13,648 nt of DNA from Candidatus Delongbacteria bacterium (lineage in GTDB: Bacteria; UBA4055). A program made the translations under genes and the position numbers. Under the pieces are notes generated by a model. That model was not told the DNA's origin and searched no databases. It saw nothing but the letters and a program-made list of their open reading frames with translations. The DNA is taken from assembly GCA_022013635.1 (NCBI GenBank), contig JAKLPX010000211.1:1-13648 (forward strand), given 5' to 3'. Positions 2-12,236 of the stretch are shown piece by piece; the first letter of the stretch is position 1; every line of letters starts with the position of its first letter.

Positions 2-694
2 AAAGATGTTATTATTAAGGGTTTTTCGGAATTAAAGACAGAAATGAAAAGGGATTATCCGAAAATATTTATTATTTTGGGAAACGATGACGGCAAATAC
101 GATGAGGACAGGATAGTTAAAGCAGAATCAAAAGGAATTTGGTCGTATATTCATAATAAAGAAGTTGAATTCAACGGGAAAAATATTTTCGGATATTCAT
201 ATATTCCTCCGACCCCTTTTCTGATAAAAGACTGGGAAAAATATGATGTTTCAAGATATACCGATCCTGGATGTATTTCTCCCGAAGACGGCAAAAGAAC
301 TGTTCATGTCGAACCCAATATAATAAGGTATTCCACGATAAAAAAGGATCTTGAAGATTTGTTTGAAAACAAAGATTTGTCAAAAGCCATAATTTTATTC
401 CACTCTCCGCCATATAAAACAAATCTCGACAGAGCAGATTTAGATGGGAAATTCTTCGATTCCGCTCCTCTGGATGTTTTCGTCGGAAGCATAGCTATTA
501 AAGAACTGATTGAAGAAAGACGGCCTTATGTTACTCTGCACGGCTATATTCACGAATCGGTCGGAATAACAGGCTCATGGAATGATAAAATAGGCAGAAC
601 TATTCTTTTTTCCGCTGCTCATGATGGAAAAGAGCTTGCTGTGATAAAATTCGACATTGACGATCCTTCTTCCGCGTCTAGGCTTCTTTTATAA
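2..694 (+). CDS. Metallophosphoesterase, calcineurin-like (5' end outside window)
   Basis: The frame is open to the left edge, so the Met at 44 is probably internal and the true start lies upstream. The visible part is about 230 codons. It has the third block of calcineurin-like phosphoesterases (ILGNDD, a GNxD form with Asp where many members have His), then FHSPP..TNLD, which supplies another metal-binding His, then VGSIAIKELIEE and LHGYIHES near the end. The DxH and GDxxD blocks that start the fold should be upstream of the window. In this family the last block is normally GHxH; here the first His is Tyr, although neighbouring His residues remain. Such enzymes hydrolyse phosphoesters with two bound metals; the substrate here cannot be told. 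It is the only + strand gene, and its last 17 bp overlap the end of the convergent gene. The family call is firm, activity less so. Confidence 0.8.
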   Translation, partial: KDVIIKGFSELKTEMKRDYPKIFIILGNDDGKYDEDRIVKAESKGIWSYIHNKEVEFNGKNIFGYSYIPPTPFLIKDWEKYDVSRYTDPGCISPEDGKRTVHVEPNIIRYSTIKKDLEDLFENKDLSKAIILFHSPPYKTNLDRADLDGKFFDSAPLDVFVGSIAIKELIEERRPYVTLHGYIHESVGITGSWNDKIGRTILFSAAHDGKELAVIKFDIDDPSSASRLLL

Positions 695-3600
695 CCGTTC
701 TTAACTGTAACGGTCTCGCCGCATCGGTCAATGCGCCTATCTTTAACGCATAAGATGTCTTTTTTGCTATATCCTTGTCTGTGATGAAATGAACATCAAG
801 GATTTTTCCCATTTTATGCCCTGTATTAAAGTAATTTACTCTTGAAAGGCATTGATCCCAGCCATCAAGCCAATTTGAAAGATCATTTTTCTGTTCTTCC
901 GAACCTGAAAAATGAATAATAATATCAATATCGCTTGACGGTACGGCAGTAGCGTTTTTTACGCTGCCGAAAATATAAAAAGCTTTTACGCCGAATCTTT
1001 CGGTGTCTATTGCTAATGCTATTTCTTGGGCGTAACTTAGGCGCCACTTCCAATGCAGATCGCTTTTTATTCTCTTATATTCCGAACCTGCCTTCTTTCT
1101 CTTTAAAGAAATATTTCCAGTCGGTTCTAAAAATACTGCAACTGCTTTAGGTATCTCGGAATTCATGAATATATGAAGATTATTACCATTTGTAGTTTCG
1201 GAAATATCAATTACCTTGATAACATTTTCCAAATAAGCATAATCCGGCAGTATTTCAGAAAGATGATTTTTTGAACGCATAAAATATTTTTCATTAAAAA
1301 TTGATTTTCCGTCGTCGGGATAAAGAGGAAGATATTTAATATTTGCTTCAACAAGATCCTGAAAGAAATGGGTGCCGAACGACAGATCGGGAACATATTC
1401 ATCCATCTTTTTGGCGATTTCGATGAGCATCGAAGTGTTATTTATATCGGAATAAGTGATATTTACGCCCAATTTAATATCTCCTCTGCTGCCCCATCTG
1501 CCGGGACCTAAGAGGATAAACTGTCTTTTGGGTAATATTTTATTTAACTTCCCGACGACTTTGCCTACGGTCATCAGGTCTTCATGTGATTCGATTTCAG
1601 AGTATGCCGCAGGATCTACATAAACTATATGCGTAATATCCGAAACCAAACCGTTGGAGATGTGCTTATCGGCCGAAAACAGGATATCTTTGTCGAGAGT
1701 ATTATCCGGTATTTCAACAGGATGATTATCTTCATTAAAGCTCTGAGGTCTGCATTGCAAGATATATAAATCTTTTCCGTCATGGGCAAATTCAATATCT
1801 ATAGGACTGTTATATTTCTCCTTAAATATATTGAGCAGCTCCCTGATATCGCTGATAACTGCAGTTTTGGTCGTCAAACCCTCAAAAGTAACTATGTGCA
1901 GGTTCTTTTTATAATCGTGTCCGATCAGCCGCGGTATTCTCAGGTATCTGTCCTCAAGCTCGGATACTATATTGTGTATGAACGGATACTCGTTTCCGTG
2001 CTTTTCGAGTAATTCCCGCAGTTCAATTGTCTCGAATTTTCTTGTTTTAAGATTTATTACATCTAATTTTTTCGGCGAATCTTTTATTTTTTCCTCAATT
2101 GTCGAATTGACTCTCAGATCGGGTTTCCCCGGAGATATCATTGAAGGATAATCGTCTGAAATCCTGTCAACCGCCCTTGTGCCGAGACCCGGCACAACCC
2201 TGATAAGACCGTCGTCTCTTTCAAGTCTTGGCGACCATCTGTACTCGTTATTGCTGAAAGCCACTCCCGCAAATGACGGTAAAAAATAATGACCGACCTT
2301 ATTTCCCACCACCTGCTGGATTATTATTCCCATTTCTTCAAGATAGTCCAGCAAAGAGTGTTCGTCCCTGTATTCTATAGGGTCAGGACCGAAAGTAGAG
2401 GCATACACCTCGGTTACGGCATCGGTTAACTGCTCAAGCCGTTCTTCTTTCGTGCCCTGATTAGCAATAAATAAACTTTTATATTTGCCGGCAAAGCTTG
2501 TTCCCAATCTATCTTCCAAAAGGCTTGAACTTCTCACGATAAGCGGATCATCTCCCAAATCCTCCAAGGCCAGAGACAGCCCTTTTACAATATCAGGAGG
2601 AAAAGAAGAGTTCTTAAATACATGAATTACATACGGGTATTCCTGCCTGACCTGACTGATATCTTTATATTTCTGCTCTACGATATCTTCAAGGCTGTTA
2701 TAATTCATAAACTCCAAGAGTCCGTCCGAAGCGATGTACCATGATTTCGGGAATTTTACTCTCTTGGCAATTTCCTTATCCTCAACGGAATTTTTTAATA
2801 TGTGTTGAGCCAAAAATAATCCACTGCTTTTACCACCTACCTTTCCATGACTGCCTGAAGGATGAATTATCGTTTTCATCAGATTATTGAAATCGTCAAC
2901 CCTGATGTGTTCTTTCGCAATTTCGATAAAACCGGGCTGATCTGTTAAAATTCTTCTCGTTAAGGCTACTCTGAAGCTTTTAGCTCTCGGTTTCGAAAGT
3001 TCCAGTCCCTGAGTTGAAAGGTGATGATACCTTTCGATCGCATTGCTAATATCGGATAGCGAAGAACTCGTATTCTCCAGCATGTTAACCATAAATCCGG
3101 AACGATCTTCCTTTATCCATTTCTGAATGCTGTCCAGAATATCGCCTTCGCTTATGTGTCTTGAAGCTATATCAAAAACGAAAGTGCTTTTATTCAATAT
3201 GTCATAAGTTTCTACGACTGACATCGGGAAATTATTATCCTTGAAAAGTTCGGTTTTCTTCTTAAAAGAAGGATTGAATTCATCGAGAAATTTTTCCGCT
3301 TCGGCTATCCCGCTCAAGCAAAGATAATTGAGCATTTTCTGGGCGATATTTACCAAAAGCCTCGGATCGGTTCTTTTCAGAAGATCTAAAATTATCCACC
3401 ACTCGCTTTTCATTTCCTTTACTTTTAGTTGTCCCTCTTCAAAAACGGATTTCAATTGTTTATGAAGGATTTGCATACCTAACTGATCCGAAATCGAATC
3501 AAGAAGTTTTCTTTCGTCTTTTAAAAAAGCACCTTCGTCCTCATTCGGTCTTTCTTCTGTATAAAATACTTTTATCTGACCTACTATTTCGTTCCTTACA

Positions 3601-3860
3601 ATGATCTTAGAATTCAATTCCCACTTTGTTTCCGAAAATTTTTTATAAAAAAACTGCTTATTGTTAAATATTATCTTCACTTTACATACATCGGGATATT
3701 GAAAACCTTGAGGAATTATTTTAACGATCTTGTTGCATAATTCTTCAGAACTTAATGATTGATTATTTAATAATTCCTGAACTTGATAAAGACATTTGAT
3801 TTCTTTAGCTCTCTCTCTAAGACTTCTTATCAGCTGTCCTAAGGATTCTTTATTTTCCAT
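678..3860 (-). CDS. GAF-like / PPDK_N ATP-grasp / nucleotidyltransferase fusion protein
   Basis: This encodes a protein of 1060 aa. Residues about 15-135 look GAF-like and are followed by a helical stretch to about 330. The ATP-binding half of PEP synthase/PPDK follows: VGGKSSGL near 340, VRSSSLLED near 443 with FAGKY, and LQCRPQS near 704. Next comes a module with IVYVDP, LLGPGRWGS (about 783) and FGTHFF (about 828). Residues about 955-1060 are a Pol-beta-type nucleotidyltransferase: FGS, SSDIDI and a third Asp in ILDVHF. The phosphohistidine swivel domain (GGxTSHAA type) and the PEP barrel are absent, so this is not a working PEP synthase or PPDK. ATG 3860 is preferred because AAGG lies 6 nt upstream; a TTG at 3866 is in frame but overlaps that site. 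It lies 13 nt after its shorter paralogue and is probably in the gdhA operon. The substrate is unknown; an ATP-dependent or nucleotidylating regulatory role is inferred. Confidence 0.8.
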   Translation of the reverse strand: MENKESLGQLIRSLRERAKEIKCLYQVQELLNNQSLSSEELCNKIVKIIPQGFQYPDVCKVKIIFNNKQFFYKKFSETKWELNSKIIVRNEIVGQIKVFYTEERPNEDEGAFLKDERKLLDSISDQLGMQILHKQLKSVFEEGQLKVKEMKSEWWIILDLLKRTDPRLLVNIAQKMLNYLCLSGIAEAEKFLDEFNPSFKKKTELFKDNNFPMSVVETYDILNKSTFVFDIASRHISEGDILDSIQKWIKEDRSGFMVNMLENTSSSLSDISNAIERYHHLSTQGLELSKPRAKSFRVALTRRILTDQPGFIEIAKEHIRVDDFNNLMKTIIHPSGSHGKVGGKSSGLFLAQHILKNSVEDKEIAKRVKFPKSWYIASDGLLEFMNYNSLEDIVEQKYKDISQVRQEYPYVIHVFKNSSFPPDIVKGLSLALEDLGDDPLIVRSSSLLEDRLGTSFAGKYKSLFIANQGTKEERLEQLTDAVTEVYASTFGPDPIEYRDEHSLLDYLEEMGIIIQQVVGNKVGHYFLPSFAGVAFSNNEYRWSPRLERDDGLIRVVPGLGTRAVDRISDDYPSMISPGKPDLRVNSTIEEKIKDSPKKLDVINLKTRKFETIELRELLEKHGNEYPFIHNIVSELEDRYLRIPRLIGHDYKKNLHIVTFEGLTTKTAVISDIRELLNIFKEKYNSPIDIEFAHDGKDLYILQCRPQSFNEDNHPVEIPDNTLDKDILFSADKHISNGLVSDITHIVYVDPAAYSEIESHEDLMTVGKVVGKLNKILPKRQFILLGPGRWGSRGDIKLGVNITYSDINNTSMLIEIAKKMDEYVPDLSFGTHFFQDLVEANIKYLPLYPDDGKSIFNEKYFMRSKNHLSEILPDYAYLENVIKVIDISETTNGNNLHIFMNSEIPKAVAVFLEPTGNISLKRKKAGSEYKRIKSDLHWKWRLSYAQEIALAIDTERFGVKAFYIFGSVKNATAVPSSDIDIIIHFSGSEEQKNDLSNWLDGWDQCLSRVNYFNTGHKMGKILDVHFITDKDIAKKTSYALKIGALTDAARPLQLRTVIKEA

Positions 3861-3873
3861 TTTCAACCTTATT

Positions 3874-5607
3874 TTACGGTTTTATGATCCCTCTTCCTGT
3901 TTTTCCGTCAACTTTTATCGTTATAGGTTTTTTACATTCGACATGAACTACATTCTCGCTCTCGGATATGACCTTTTGCTTTTTTAAAAAATTCCAGTTT
4001 ATCTCATACTCGTAATAGGCAGGCACTGAAAAGTAATTTACACCAAAGCATGTCATATTGTGGAAAAAATGAGACCCCTGACTCAGTTCGACATTCATGT
4101 TCGGAAGTCCGGCTTCCACTATAGTTTGAACATTAGATATCTGACTCCAATTTACAGGAATTCCGAGCCAATGATCGGAGCTTCCCCAGCGCCCGAAACC
4201 GATCAGCAGATATTTTCTGTTTTTAACGGTAAGAATAGAATTGAATTTTTCAATCTCGACCGCTATTTTTTTGGTATTCTTAGCGTCAAAAACATCGGGT
4301 TTTACATATACTATGTCTTTAATCATTTCGGAACAGCCGTTGCCGAGAACAAATTCGGATGATACGATATTTTCTTCATCGTCAATTTCGTGGCTCTCAA
4401 TTTTAACATTCTCGTCAGAAACCACCATCGGACGGACTTGTAGAAATCCGAACCTTCCGGTCGCATCGTAACCTTCGCCTGTCGTGGTAACTGCAAATTC
4501 GATCTCTACAGGTGTATTGAATTTTTCAGCGGAATTTTTCAGCAGATCTTTTACGATATCGTTCAACGGAAGTAATTCCAGCTTTAATATCGGAGCGAAG
4601 TTTATTATCCTCGGTCCGTCAGAACCTATTCCGGGTGTTACCCTTCCCGAATCGCTTACTGTTGATGCAGCAAATGAGACTGCCGAGTCCTTTTCTGCTT
4701 TCTGAATGTTGTTTGTACGCATAAACTCAGTTTCATTTATCGGATCGTATTCTTCCGGCTCGCTCATTTTTATATGCCAGAATTCAGTCTGGGTATTTTT
4801 GAGCATATCGCTTACCGAACCGAAAGGAGGAGTCAGTGTCGGGTCTTCGGGCGAATATGTCCACGATATTCCTCCGTCAACTATCGTTTTTCCTAATCCT
4901 ACCGCAAGATTAACAACGCCTTCTTCGGGCTTTGACCTTCCCATAGGGTAAAAATTATAAGATCTTGCCACTCCCGATATGTCGGGATAAAACCTGTCGT
5001 CGTGTTTTCTGCCGATAACTTCCTGAATAATAACCGCCATTTTTTCTTCTTTAATATCGTGTTTAGTCGCCTTCATATAGTCTTTCGGAGCTTTAAAAAA
5101 TGCAGAAGCATAGATTAATTTTACGGCTTCGTATAATTTTCGGCATCTTGTGTCTATATCGAACTGGTTGTTGGAAAGCATTTTTGTGGCGTATATCCCT
5201 GCAAAAGGTTCGAATTTTGCGTCTTCGAGCAGGCTGGATGACCTTATAGCGAGAGGTTTATTGGCTTTCGTTATTAAATCTCTCAGGTCTTTCAGGATTT
5301 CAAACGGGAGATCTGCTTTCTGGAATTCGTGGGCAATACGGCTGTCGTTGGCATCGCTTAGAGCTGTCTTATAAAGATCGTTCATCTGCATGAATGTGTC
5401 GAAAACACCTGTTCTGAGAACAGTAAATTTAGGGATGTCAATAATAAACGAAGGATATTTCCCTTTAGAATTTATTTTATTTACGATTTCATCCGCAATA
5501 ATCAAACCGTGAGCTTTACCGCCGACTTCGCCGAAACCGATATATTCGATCTGAGCACCTTTTTTCGGATTCTCGTCCAATGAGCCTATAAAATCAAATT
5601 CCTTCAT
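3874..5607 (-). CDS. PPDK_N (PEP/pyruvate-binding-like) ATP-grasp protein lacking His and PEP domains
   Basis: This 577-aa protein is a shorter paralogue of the next gene downstream. It has FGEVGGKAHGL (about 24-34), IRSSSLLED (about 121-129) with FAGIY, a GVARSYNFYP-type middle part, and LQVRPM (about 390), the usual ATP-grasp landmarks of the PEP synthase/PPDK N-terminal domain. The C-terminal module holds IVYVKP, LLIGFGRWGS (about 468-477) and SQGSHFF (about 508-514), matching the neighbour. It lacks the GAF-like and nucleotidyltransferase ends and has no phosphohistidine or PEP-barrel domain. I start it at ATG 5607, 2 nt after the gdhA stop with AGAGGA upstream. In-frame ATGs at 5634 and 5619 lie inside gdhA; the first has no good SD and the second has the SD touching it. 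Tight spacing implies co-transcription and perhaps translational coupling with gdhA. The fold call is firm; the reaction is unknown. Confidence 0.82.
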   Translation of the reverse strand: MKEFDFIGSLDENPKKGAQIEYIGFGEVGGKAHGLIIADEIVNKINSKGKYPSFIIDIPKFTVLRTGVFDTFMQMNDLYKTALSDANDSRIAHEFQKADLPFEILKDLRDLITKANKPLAIRSSSLLEDAKFEPFAGIYATKMLSNNQFDIDTRCRKLYEAVKLIYASAFFKAPKDYMKATKHDIKEEKMAVIIQEVIGRKHDDRFYPDISGVARSYNFYPMGRSKPEEGVVNLAVGLGKTIVDGGISWTYSPEDPTLTPPFGSVSDMLKNTQTEFWHIKMSEPEEYDPINETEFMRTNNIQKAEKDSAVSFAASTVSDSGRVTPGIGSDGPRIINFAPILKLELLPLNDIVKDLLKNSAEKFNTPVEIEFAVTTTGEGYDATGRFGFLQVRPMVVSDENVKIESHEIDDEENIVSSEFVLGNGCSEMIKDIVYVKPDVFDAKNTKKIAVEIEKFNSILTVKNRKYLLIGFGRWGSSDHWLGIPVNWSQISNVQTIVEAGLPNMNVELSQGSHFFHNMTCFGVNYFSVPAYYEYEINWNFLKKQKVISESENVVHVECKKPITIKVDGKTGRGIIKP

Positions 5608-5609
5608 AA

Positions 5610-6896
5610 TTATACCCATCCTCTTTCTCTGCATGCCACGGCGACGCGGTCAACAGCGATTATATATGCCGCTTCCCGCATATTCATTTTATTTTTCTTG
5701 GCAAATTCGCTTATCGAAATATAAGCTGCGGTAATTTTCTGATCCAGTTTGCCGAATACCTCGTTTTTATCCCAATAATAATTCATATTGCTCTGCACTT
5801 GTTCGAAATAAGAGCATATCGCTCCGCCTGAATTTGCCAGTAGATCCGGTATCAGTTTTATATCTTTTGTATGGATTCTCGGTTCGACTTTCGGATTTGT
5901 CGGACTGTTGGCTCCTTCCGCTATAATTTTGACTTTCTCCGATATCAATTCTATATTATCTTCGTTGATCTGATTTTCAACGGCAGCCGGAACAAGGATA
6001 TCTACATTCTTTTTAATCCATTCATTTCCGGCAATAACCTGATATCCTAAATCCTTCGCTTTTATCTTATCAATCCCGCCAAACGGATCTGCGATTTTCT
6101 TTAATTCTAAAAGGTCTATCCCGTCTTCTTTACAAAATGATATTTCCTCCATATCCTGCTGATTCCAGCTTGAAACGCATAGGATTTTCCCGCCCATTTT
6201 AGTGTATAGTTCTATGGCATTCTGAGCGACATTTCCGAATCCCTGAAAGCTTGCTGTGGTATTTGAAGGTTTAATGTTTAATTCTTTCAATGCTTCTCTC
6301 ACACAGAGCATTACTCCGTAACCAGTGGCTTCTTTTCTGCCAAGCGACCCGCCCATTCCGACAGGTTTTCCAGTAATAAAACCAGGCTGTCTTTCGCCTG
6401 TAATAGTTTCATATTCGTCAAGCATCCAAAGCATGTGCTGAGCGTTTGTCATAAGTTCCGGAGCAGGCACATCAATATTTGCTCCGATATTCTTGAAATT
6501 CTGCCTTACCCATCCCCTGCAAATCTGCTCCTGTTCATTCAGGGACAGATCGTGAGGATCGCAGATAACTCCTCCCTTTCCTCCACCTAATGGTAAATCC
6601 GCAACAGCAGTTTTCCAGCTCATCAGCATTGATAATGCCCTCATAGTATCAACCGTTTCGTGCGGATGAAATCTGATCCCGCCTTTTGCCGGACCTCTGG
6701 CGTCGTTATGCATTATCCTGAAACCTTTGAATATCCTACGGATGCCATCGTCCATTCTGACAGGAATGCTGAAATGAAATTCCTTCATCGGAGTTCTCAG
6801 AAGATCTCTTGACGCTTTATCAAGATTCAGAATATCCGCCGCTTTGTCAAACTGCTCTTGAGCTATCGTATAGGGATTATATGCAGAATTCGCCAT
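5610..6896 (-). CDS. gdhA: Glutamate dehydrogenase (Glu/Leu/Phe/Val family)
   Basis: The enzyme interconverts glutamate and 2-oxoglutarate plus ammonia using NAD(P). At 428 aa it has the usual length of the hexameric bacterial/archaeal type. Substrate and catalytic segments are GPAKGGIRFHP (about 68-78), SWKTAVADLPLGGGKGG (about 93-109, with the catalytic Lys) and DVPAPE (about 142-147). The Rossmann nucleotide site is FQGFGNVA (about 217-224), followed by LVPAAVENQI, EGANSPTNP and LANSGGAICSYFE. The glycine in GGGKGG replaces the more common Ala. A leucine or phenylalanine dehydrogenase is less likely given the complete GDH motif set. Whether it uses NAD or NADP cannot be settled by eye. AGAGG lies 6 nt before the ATG. 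It is the first gene after a 110-bp gap holding a promoter-like sequence and a 9-bp dyad, and leads the operon with the two PPDK_N proteins. Confidence 0.93.
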   Translation of the reverse strand: MANSAYNPYTIAQEQFDKAADILNLDKASRDLLRTPMKEFHFSIPVRMDDGIRRIFKGFRIMHNDARGPAKGGIRFHPHETVDTMRALSMLMSWKTAVADLPLGGGKGGVICDPHDLSLNEQEQICRGWVRQNFKNIGANIDVPAPELMTNAQHMLWMLDEYETITGERQPGFITGKPVGMGGSLGRKEATGYGVMLCVREALKELNIKPSNTTASFQGFGNVAQNAIELYTKMGGKILCVSSWNQQDMEEISFCKEDGIDLLELKKIADPFGGIDKIKAKDLGYQVIAGNEWIKKNVDILVPAAVENQINEDNIELISEKVKIIAEGANSPTNPKVEPRIHTKDIKLIPDLLANSGGAICSYFEQVQSNMNYYWDKNEVFGKLDQKITAAYISISEFAKKNKMNMREAAYIIAVDRVAVACRERGWV

Positions 6897-11132: not shown

Positions 11133-12236
11133 TTAAGGAGTTCTCGAAACACGGAAACCTACGCTGTAAAGACTGCGGAATGACGGTCCGTAGTAATAGC
11201 GAACCGCAATGCGACAGTCGTCTGCAGCAGAGTTCCAATATCCGCCGCGGGCGTCTCGGCGGGAACCTATATCAGGGCCATAAGGATCAGTAACGATTCC
11301 GAGATCGTTACAGGCCGTGTAATAGCTTTTTCCATACCAGTCCCAGCACCATTCCCAGACATTACCGTTCATATCATAGATACCAAGCTGATTAGGAGCC
11401 TTTGTGCCGACTGGATGACACGGTCCGGTGTAATTTCCATAATACCATACATAATTAGTTAAATCTGCTTCATTAACACACCCGCTATATCTGCAATTGT
11501 CCGTCCAGTTCGTTCCGCCCCTTGCGGCATATTCCCATTCGGCTTCTGAAGGGAGCCTGTAGCCATTTACGCTCCAATTGCAAGTAACCGAGTTCCAAGT
11601 AGAATTCGTGTTTGTCGGTACCTCTCCCCAGTCTGCCGGATCAGTAGAACCACTAATAGTGTAGCATGGCGTGATTCCTTCCGCCATACTGCGCAGATTG
11701 CAATAGACCAATATTGCATACCAGCTTACATAGTAAACCGGATAATTCTCGCCTACTCCATAATCATAAGTATTCACAGGCATATACTGCGCCCATTCAG
11801 GTTGTGTTACCTCGTATTTACCTATATGAAAATCGCTTAAAGTCACGCTGTGGACAGGCAGTTCGTCACTATCGCCTTCTAAATAGTGGTCGCCCATGTC
11901 AAAAGTTCCGCCTTCGACAAAAACCATACCGGCAGGAACTGTAATTATTGCTGTAACTACAAAAAAATACTTGTTTTCTGTAAAATTATCAGTCCAAGTT
12001 GTTAAATTTGTGCTATCTAATAGTGTCTGATCGTCGTAGGGATTATTTTTACCGTAAATGTAATATTTATCGGCACTGCTTACTGAATCCCATTGTAAGG
12101 TAACAAGACTGTCATCGTAATTTATGCTTAGATTTGGAGGAGGCTTCAGTTTATTGCCTATGCTAATTTTATCGGCTGTCTCTGTGCAAAGAACCCCCGC
12201 AAGAATACAAATAATAATTAGTACGCACTTCTTCAT
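11133..12236 (-). CDS. Exported fibronectin-III plus FGE-sulfatase-fold (SUMF1-like) protein
   Basis: This 367-aa protein starts with a signal peptide (KK, then CVLIIICILAGVL, probable cleavage near 17-22). Residues about 32-100 form a fibronectin type III-like domain. Residues about 101-366 form a formylglycine-generating-enzyme fold: VEGGTFDMGD (about 107-116), EVTQPEWAQYM, YRLPSEAEWEYAARGG (about 226-241), YDMNGNVWEWCWDW (about 287-300), RGGYWNS (330-336) and GFRVSRTP at the end. True FGE uses a Cys pair spaced C-x4-C after the GG. Here only the second position is Cys (341) and the first is Ser336. Sulfatase activation is therefore unlikely, and a ligand-binding C-type-lectin-like role is more probable. 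Many other cysteines suit a disulfide-bonded exported protein. The SD AAGGAGG is 5 nt before the ATG. The last 33 residues before the tail look like a variable region (separate entry). Confidence 0.85.
   Translation of the reverse strand: MKKCVLIIICILAGVLCTETADKISIGNKLKPPPNLSINYDDSLVTLQWDSVSSADKYYIYGKNNPYDDQTLLDSTNLTTWTDNFTENKYFFVVTAIITVPAGMVFVEGGTFDMGDHYLEGDSDELPVHSVTLSDFHIGKYEVTQPEWAQYMPVNTYDYGVGENYPVYYVSWYAILVYCNLRSMAEGITPCYTISGSTDPADWGEVPTNTNSTWNSVTCNWSVNGYRLPSEAEWEYAARGGTNWTDNCRYSGCVNEADLTNYVWYYGNYTGPCHPVGTKAPNQLGIYDMNGNVWEWCWDWYGKSYYTACNDLGIVTDPYGPDIGSRRDARGGYWNSAADDCRIAVRYYYGPSFRSLYSVGFRVSRTP
11151..11249 (-). other. Variable-region-like 3' segment of the FGE-fold gene
   Basis: The segment encodes residues 330-362, from RGGYWNS to GFR. 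It keeps the fixed framework known from FGE-fold targets of diversity-generating retroelements (RGG.W, CR, A.R, P, R, GFR). Between these it has Tyr, Ser, Asp, Phe and Leu, including YYY and SLYS. At the 13 positions that are Asn in the framework I recall, 12 codons end in C or T, as expected if they derive from AAC/AAT by adenine-directed change. The same residues also occur in ordinary FGE-fold families. No reverse transcriptase or template repeat is in this window. Confidence 0.35.

Follow-up and report, generated by a model that had tools for sequence, protein, structure and literature searches.

Paired dikinase-like proteins encoded behind glutamate dehydrogenase in a Candidatus Delongbacteria genome, and the apparently undescribed family to which they belong

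Genes and domains at the locus

The window, by which we mean the whole stretch of 13,648 nucleotides analysed, is an entire single contig from a Candidatus Delongbacteria genome of 413 contigs that is estimated to be 82% complete. The genes for a glutamate dehydrogenase (GDH) and for two proteins termed B and A are consecutive on its minus strand in the order GDH, B, A (Table 1), and the coordinates confirm the gaps of 2 nt and then 13 nt that a preliminary description of this DNA had reported behind GDH. The dehydrogenase, of type GDH1, matched the NCBIfam model GdhA_Arch with 406 bits, which is below the equivalog cut-off of 750. A metallophosphoesterase gene overlaps the 3' end of the A gene by 17 nt, and its fragment in the window had no match in Pfam. 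Positions 11133-12236 encode a protein with an FGE-sulfatase (SUMF1-like) domain and a signal-like start, whose N-terminal region, judged by eye, may be Fn3-like. Relatives of B with a name attached come from Candidatus Delongbacteria (two assemblies, 82 and 76% identity), from two assemblies labelled just 'bacterium' (75 and 73%) and from 'bacterium BMS3Abin03' (58%).

Table 1. Positions of the genes and domains of the GDH, B and A set in the window.
Feature	Position	Strand	Remarks
GDH (GDH1, 428 aa)	5610..6896	-	first gene of the set; Pfam ELFV_dehydrog_N and ELFV_dehydrog above cut-off
Protein B, 577 aa	3874..5607	-	ATP-grasp (PPDK_N) and putative divergent swivel-like domain; ATG at 5607
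B residues 26-395, PPDK_N ATP-grasp	4423..5532	-	PF01326, 123 bits; GGK, RSSSLLED, E370, LQVRP
B residues 410-577, putative swivel-like domain	3877..4380	-	GFGRWGS and SQGSHFF; structure alignment, conservation
B H513 codon	4069-4071	-	within SQGSHFF
Protein A, 1060 aa	678..3860	-	GAF-like, helical region, PPDK_N, putative swivel-like, nucleotidyltransferase; ATG at 3860
A residues 9-145, GAF-like sensor domain	3426..3836	-	
A residues 340-718, PPDK_N ATP-grasp	1707..2843	-	PF01326, 189 bits
A residues 722-905, putative swivel-like domain	1146..1697	-	GPGRWGS and SFGTHFF
A H831 codon	1368-1370	-	within SFGTHFF
A residues ~940-1040, nucleotidyltransferase	741..1043	-	motif FGSVKNATAVPSSDIDI; Pfam NTP_transf_2, Polbeta
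Metallophosphoesterase gene, convergent	2..694	+	5' end cut by contig start; homologue L064:11915-12787 is Metallophos PF00149

The ATP-binding landmarks of PEP synthase and PPDK that had been read beforehand in the two adjacent proteins were found in both. PF01326 (PPDK_N) matched A and B above its Pfam cut-off of 27 bits, GGK and RSSSLLED were present, and the LQxRP motif reads LQCRPQ in A and LQVRPM in B. The ATP-site residues to which functional roles are assigned (the Lys of GGK, the Arg of RSS, a Glu, and the Gln and Arg of LQxRP) occur in both proteins. The absence of the PEP/pyruvate barrel was likewise upheld, as PF02896 was unmatched in A and B in a Pfam scan. Apart from these, the C-terminal part of A matched the Pfam families NTP_transf_2 (27.3 bits, cut-off 21) and Polbeta (27.2 bits, cut-off 26.9), and in NCBIfam it gave a weak MntA match (21.4 bits against a cut-off of 60).

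The preliminary description had also held the phosphohistidine swivel domain to be missing, which is probably wrong. The predicted model of B can be aligned structurally with 2ols and 1dik across their swivel region, and residues 301-911 of the predicted A model align with residues 15-467 of 2ols; structure prediction had been proposed as a check and, for the single proteins, both models give a swivel-like alignment. The best structural matches are canonical relatives, namely PEP synthase and rifampin phosphotransferase (RPH). The near-invariant histidine of the C-terminal domain sits in an SxG[ST]HF motif and occupies the second position of a helix in the models (512-520 in B, 830-838 in A), flanked by or lying in a loop with pLDDT below 50 (508-512 in B, 821-831 in A). 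By sequence, the Pfam matches listed for 15 relatives, with E allowed to reach 10, did not include PF00391, hhalign of the C-terminal domain with PF00391 gave a probability of at most 0.3% with small and deep alignments, and a PDB profile search with this domain gave a best E of 0.15 or worse, which was taken as chance. As a structural claim, the C-terminal domain of A and B seems to be a divergent phosphohistidine swivel domain. To our knowledge, its near-invariant GRWG and Glu are not a feature of canonical swivel domains, and its chemistry may therefore differ from that of the canonical enzymes. 'Dikinase without an acceptor barrel' is probably a better fit to these proteins than the earlier 'half-dikinase without a swivel domain'.

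PPDK_N, being common to both, would also suit a split PEP synthase or a phenylphosphate-synthase-like enzyme, with the His/PEP part encoded by a separate gene elsewhere. This reading was rejected and is, in our estimate, extremely improbable. Besides A and B, PPDK_N occurs in one further gene of the source genome, on contig C191, and the only PF00391 match lies in that same gene, which encodes a complete PPDK (PPDK_N, PF00391 and PF02896, the last with 259 bits); no second gene with His and PEP domains was found in the genome at its completeness of 82%. Each protein, moreover, seems to have a swivel-like domain of its own, and there was no barrel gene among the recurrent neighbour clusters when a single example of each was inspected by eye.

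Types, spread and residue conservation of the family

A search with the profile of the C-terminal domain in a first, domain-wide sample of 386 genomes gave 136 module matches in 83 genomes, of which 132 were fetched (G009:C387, G009:C236, G010:C169 and G012:C23 were left out) and assigned by best match to the types A, B, C, D and E. Many of the genomes compared are draft assemblies. Type B is the module alone. Type A has a GAF-like or shorter N-terminus and occurs with or without the nucleotidyltransferase; types C and D are mostly of about 980-1050 aa and have receiver-like regions (Response_reg above cut-off in 4 of the 7 scanned and below it in 3); type E is mostly of about 860-920 aa, with an N-terminus that is KaiC-like by eye only. 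The barrel for the substrate (PEP/pyruvate) was unmatched in the family proteins scanned by Pfam. A FastTree tree built from 180 modules separated A and E (62/62) from B, C and D (118/118) with support 1.0 and had B as one clade (25/25, support 1.0); neither A alone (41 of 46 in the best clade) nor C/D alone (54 of 93) gave a clean clade.

Some variation was seen within the types. The N-termini of two E-type proteins (L058:7608-10208 and L059:3696-6410) look KaiC/RecA-like by eye, seemingly without the Walker A lysine, and PPDK_N was their sole match in Pfam. A C/D-type protein (L064:12915-15878) has two receiver-like regions within residues ~30-330; judged by eye, the first of the C/D receiver-like regions is without the Asp that usually accepts the phosphoryl group, and the second retains an Asp. 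Two A-type proteins, L010:11679-14432 (917 aa) and L219:4814-7555 (913 aa), end before the nucleotidyltransferase and retain GDH and B, so that the nucleotidyltransferase seems dispensable for the pairing.

An A gene follows B in 18 of the 20 cases of the first sample, the exceptions being G003 and G007, and many genomes with a module of type E or of the ~1000-aa type D have a single one. The possibility raised earlier that homologues occur singly is thus contradicted for B and describes many of the D- and E-type genomes. In the phylum of G066, which differs from and is smaller than the phylum of G074 considered below and was left out of the linkage counts, the module was present in 184 of 245 genomes. 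A and B are members of a widespread family that is apparently undescribed; no description of it was found in the open-access literature among the titles and abstract openings of the matches listed. An anti-phage system was considered and rejected, as the PADLOC matches were weak and confined to A (five in the nucleotidyltransferase part, E 5.9e-8 to 0.0066, and one to Cas11e, E 6.3e-4), and neither B nor a C-type protein had any.

Residue conservation was counted in B numbering over the 132 modules with gaps omitted; at the histidine, G066 and G108 are gaps and G125 is mis-cut. The ATP-site residues K31 (123/124), R122 (127/127), E370 (127/128) and Q390 (127/128) are kept in the aligned modules, R392 being less strict (119/128), and in the C-terminal domain the same holds for R473 (129/130), E498 (130/130) and H513 (129/130). 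As the ATP-site residues and the histidine are near-invariant, there is a good case, argued from sequence conservation, that the A/B family would be catalytic.

These counts bear on the reading of A and B as a sensor of adenylates or of phosphate, or as an assembly factor, without catalysis of its own, which would bind GDH and alter its activity but transfer nothing. More losses would be expected in a scaffold than are seen here, with K31, R122, E370, Q390 and H513 each kept at 99% or above and R392 at 93%, and the nucleotidyltransferase motif G[SG]...DxD is present in 19 of 39 A-type proteins, that of the window (FGSVKNATAVPSSDIDI) included. We therefore hold such a sensor to be quite unlikely, even if it would agree with the GAF-like and receiver-like sensor ends and with the absence of a recognisable acceptor domain in the Pfam scan. 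A helper required for GDH activity would also suit the title of Baggio and Morrison (1996), which, as given in the reference list of PMC4539542, speaks of trans-acting genes downstream of Bacteroides gdhA that affect GDH activity.

Gene neighbourhood and glutamate dehydrogenase

The comparison of gene order across genomes that had been proposed earlier showed homologues to lie often, and not rarely, near gdhA. In the first sample, GDH was within 100 nt of a module gene in 31 of 83 genomes, within 1 kb in 45 and within 5 kb in 49; without the window's own family, the counts were 36 of 71 genomes within 1 kb and 40 of 71 within 5 kb. The fetched stretches of 34 of the 83 genomes, some of them truncated by contig ends, held no GDH within 5 kb; G065, G130, G202, G231 and G340 are among the clear unlinked exceptions, and 9 of the 16 E-type modules were unlinked. 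Fifteen of the 20 B genes are directly downstream of a GDH1 gene and one is 4.3 kb from GDH1 and convergent; for the other four, GDH was not seen within 5 kb, a contig end cutting two of them and lying less than 150 nt from the other two.

When the 784 ORFs of the neighbourhoods were clustered, GDH was the commonest neighbour with a count of 41 (genomes outside the window's own family, plus one), and the next commonest, a metallophosphoesterase, reached 8 by the same counting; in 13 of the first-sample genomes, a member of this second cluster was no more than 6 kb from a module. As a control, canonical PF00391 genes were compared with modules in 15 shared genomes: at least 32 of 40 modules shared a contig with a listed GDH as against 0 of 37 PF00391 genes, GDH having been taken from the best 80 of the 83 module-bearing genomes (the weakest matches, in G018, G166 and G305, are out) and from the stronger GDH matches in these, so that these counts are lower bounds.

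The type of GDH within 5 kb also differed. Outside the window's own family, 25 of 27 A/B cases involved GDH1 and 19 of 24 C/D cases involved GDH2 (Fisher p 1.4e-7, uncorrected for relatedness), and all 10 GDH2 proteins examined scored above the NCBIfam cut-off for NADP-specific GDH. The orientations of module and GDH differ, which argues that the linkage is not merely one inherited operon.

The second sample was the phylum of G074 with 395 genomes, which we call 'Bacteroidota-like' on the SusD marker (PF07980) alone. At E 0.001, Bacteroides ihuae was the one genome among 14 named controls in which SusD was found, and three (G066, G086 and G227) of the 71 module-bearing genomes covered, out of 83, also had it; at E 1e-60, it marked G074 and G215 of the 386 genomes and none of the controls, so Bacteroides ihuae was missed too. 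G074 and G215 are themselves without the module. In the phylum as a whole the module was present in 68 of 395 genomes and 55 of 171 genera, with a GDH match within 6 kb for at least 97 of 117 modules and in at least 57 of 68 genomes; a listed GDH was lacking within 6 kb in 11 of the 68. Chance would be expected to account for about 1% of modules by our own arithmetic, taking two to three listed GDHs per ~3.7 Mb genome.

From this phylum, 40 loci were fetched because module and GDH were both there, and they are accordingly no sample of linkage. Two modules alternate with two or three GDHs in 9 of the 40. The locus L196 (1367-13985), from a one-contig genome, reads GDH2-D-(two ORFs)-GDH2-D-GDH1, and alternating arrays of GDH and D-type genes were also seen in L197-L204. 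As GDH and D-type genes alternate in these arrays, it is suggested that GDH paralogues have module partners of their own. The order of the window, GDH1-B-A, is repeated in 5 of the 40 loci, and a metallophosphoesterase lies beyond A in 6.

There is a strong case that the A/B family is dedicated to GDH. The earlier proposal of a putative regulator or modifying enzyme tied to GDH gains support from this comparison, through linkage in distant lineages, in several orientations and with GDH as the commonest neighbour. The same evidence weighs on another reading, in which A and B are small-molecule phosphotransferases whose substrate is either a signalling nucleotide or some metabolite in the GDH reaction. 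The divergent C-terminal domain or the A/B interface would then form the acceptor site, and the link to GDH would be one of pathway. PEP synthase and rifampin phosphotransferase, the best structural matches, do have small molecules as substrates, and a substrate site could be built from the near-invariant GRWG, Glu and His. However, the substrate barrel was unmatched in the proteins scanned, no other neighbour cluster approaches the frequency of GDH, and the preference of A/B and C/D for different GDH types, along with the nine alternating loci, fits enzyme partners better. We consider a small-molecule acceptor unlikely.

Proposed mode of action

The reading we favour, and regard as somewhat probable, is that A and B are GDH-dedicated, ATP-driven regulators with a histidine relay, in which the swivel hands a group to GDH and so sets its activity. 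The ATP-grasp would load a phosphoryl (or pyrophosphoryl) group onto the swivel histidine, H513 in B and H831 in A, and the swivel would pass it to a separate acceptor. The likeliest acceptor is the adjacent GDH, whose activity would be set by the transfer. The sensor ends, GAF-like in A and receiver-like in the ~1000-aa C/D relatives, may control the timing or rate. The nucleotidyltransferase of A could add a second mark, and the neighbouring metallophosphoesterase could remove the first, as a possible reversing enzyme. The case for phosphoryl transfer to GDH is moderate to weak; we infer that the histidine would be phosphorylated, that GDH would be the acceptor and that the effect would be activation and not inhibition, and the roles given to the accessory enzymes are equally conditional.

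Of the systems already described, PEP synthase (pyruvate, water dikinase) and PPDK are alike in the PPDK_N ATP-grasp with its conserved ATP-site residues, and the C-terminal domains of the predicted A and B models align with their phosphohistidine swivel domain. They are unlike in the PEP/pyruvate barrel, for which A and B gave no match, and in carrying GGxT[SC]HA where the A/B family has SxG[ST]HF, unrecognised by PF00391; the family further adds sensor and nucleotidyltransferase domains and is tied to GDH. The NCBIfam model of RPH matched the ATP part only, with 28.9 bits for A and 16.7 for B against a cut-off of 999. Dedicated partners of central nitrogen enzymes are GarA with PknG, which act in GDH regulation, and the adenylyltransferase GlnE of glutamine synthetase. 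By this description they resemble the present case, in that a dedicated protein partner sets the activity of a central nitrogen enzyme. Unlike GarA/PknG, A and B had no FHA match in Pfam, and unlike GlnE, the nucleotidyltransferase of A had a weak NCBIfam match to MntA only; it is of the Pol-beta type, a superfamily that also includes GlnE and GlnD. We know of no counterpart to the ATP-grasp/swivel engine in systems of the GarA/PknG or GlnE type.

Tentatively, A and B could represent a new class of protein-modifying enzymes, in which the swivelling phosphohistidine of a barrel-less dikinase serves to modify another, metabolic enzyme as its partner, with copies cognate to GDH paralogues and with the nucleotidyltransferase of A and the metallophosphoesterase gene as further parts. 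In the 1996 work on Bacteroides, some 3 kb of DNA on the downstream side of gdhA reportedly restored GDH activity in E. coli in trans, and a segment of this size would suit a ~1000-aa D-type protein. In the SusD-marked phylum, D-type genes adjoin the genes for GDH2, which makes a D-type protein a candidate for the Bacteroides trans-acting factor. A query of the open-access literature with putative B. thetaiotaomicron locus tags returned nothing.

GDH links carbon and nitrogen metabolism. If the A/B family are dedicated partners of it, there would be a layer of control on GDH in many bacteria which is missed when GDH is expressed alone, and the family may help account for the published trans effect downstream of Bacteroides gdhA. 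If the proposed mechanism is true, a reversible covalent switch of GDH would exist across several bacterial groups, the 1996 trans-acting factor would be explained, and the ATP-grasp/swivel engine that serves PEP synthase and antibiotic phosphorylation would have been reused on proteins.
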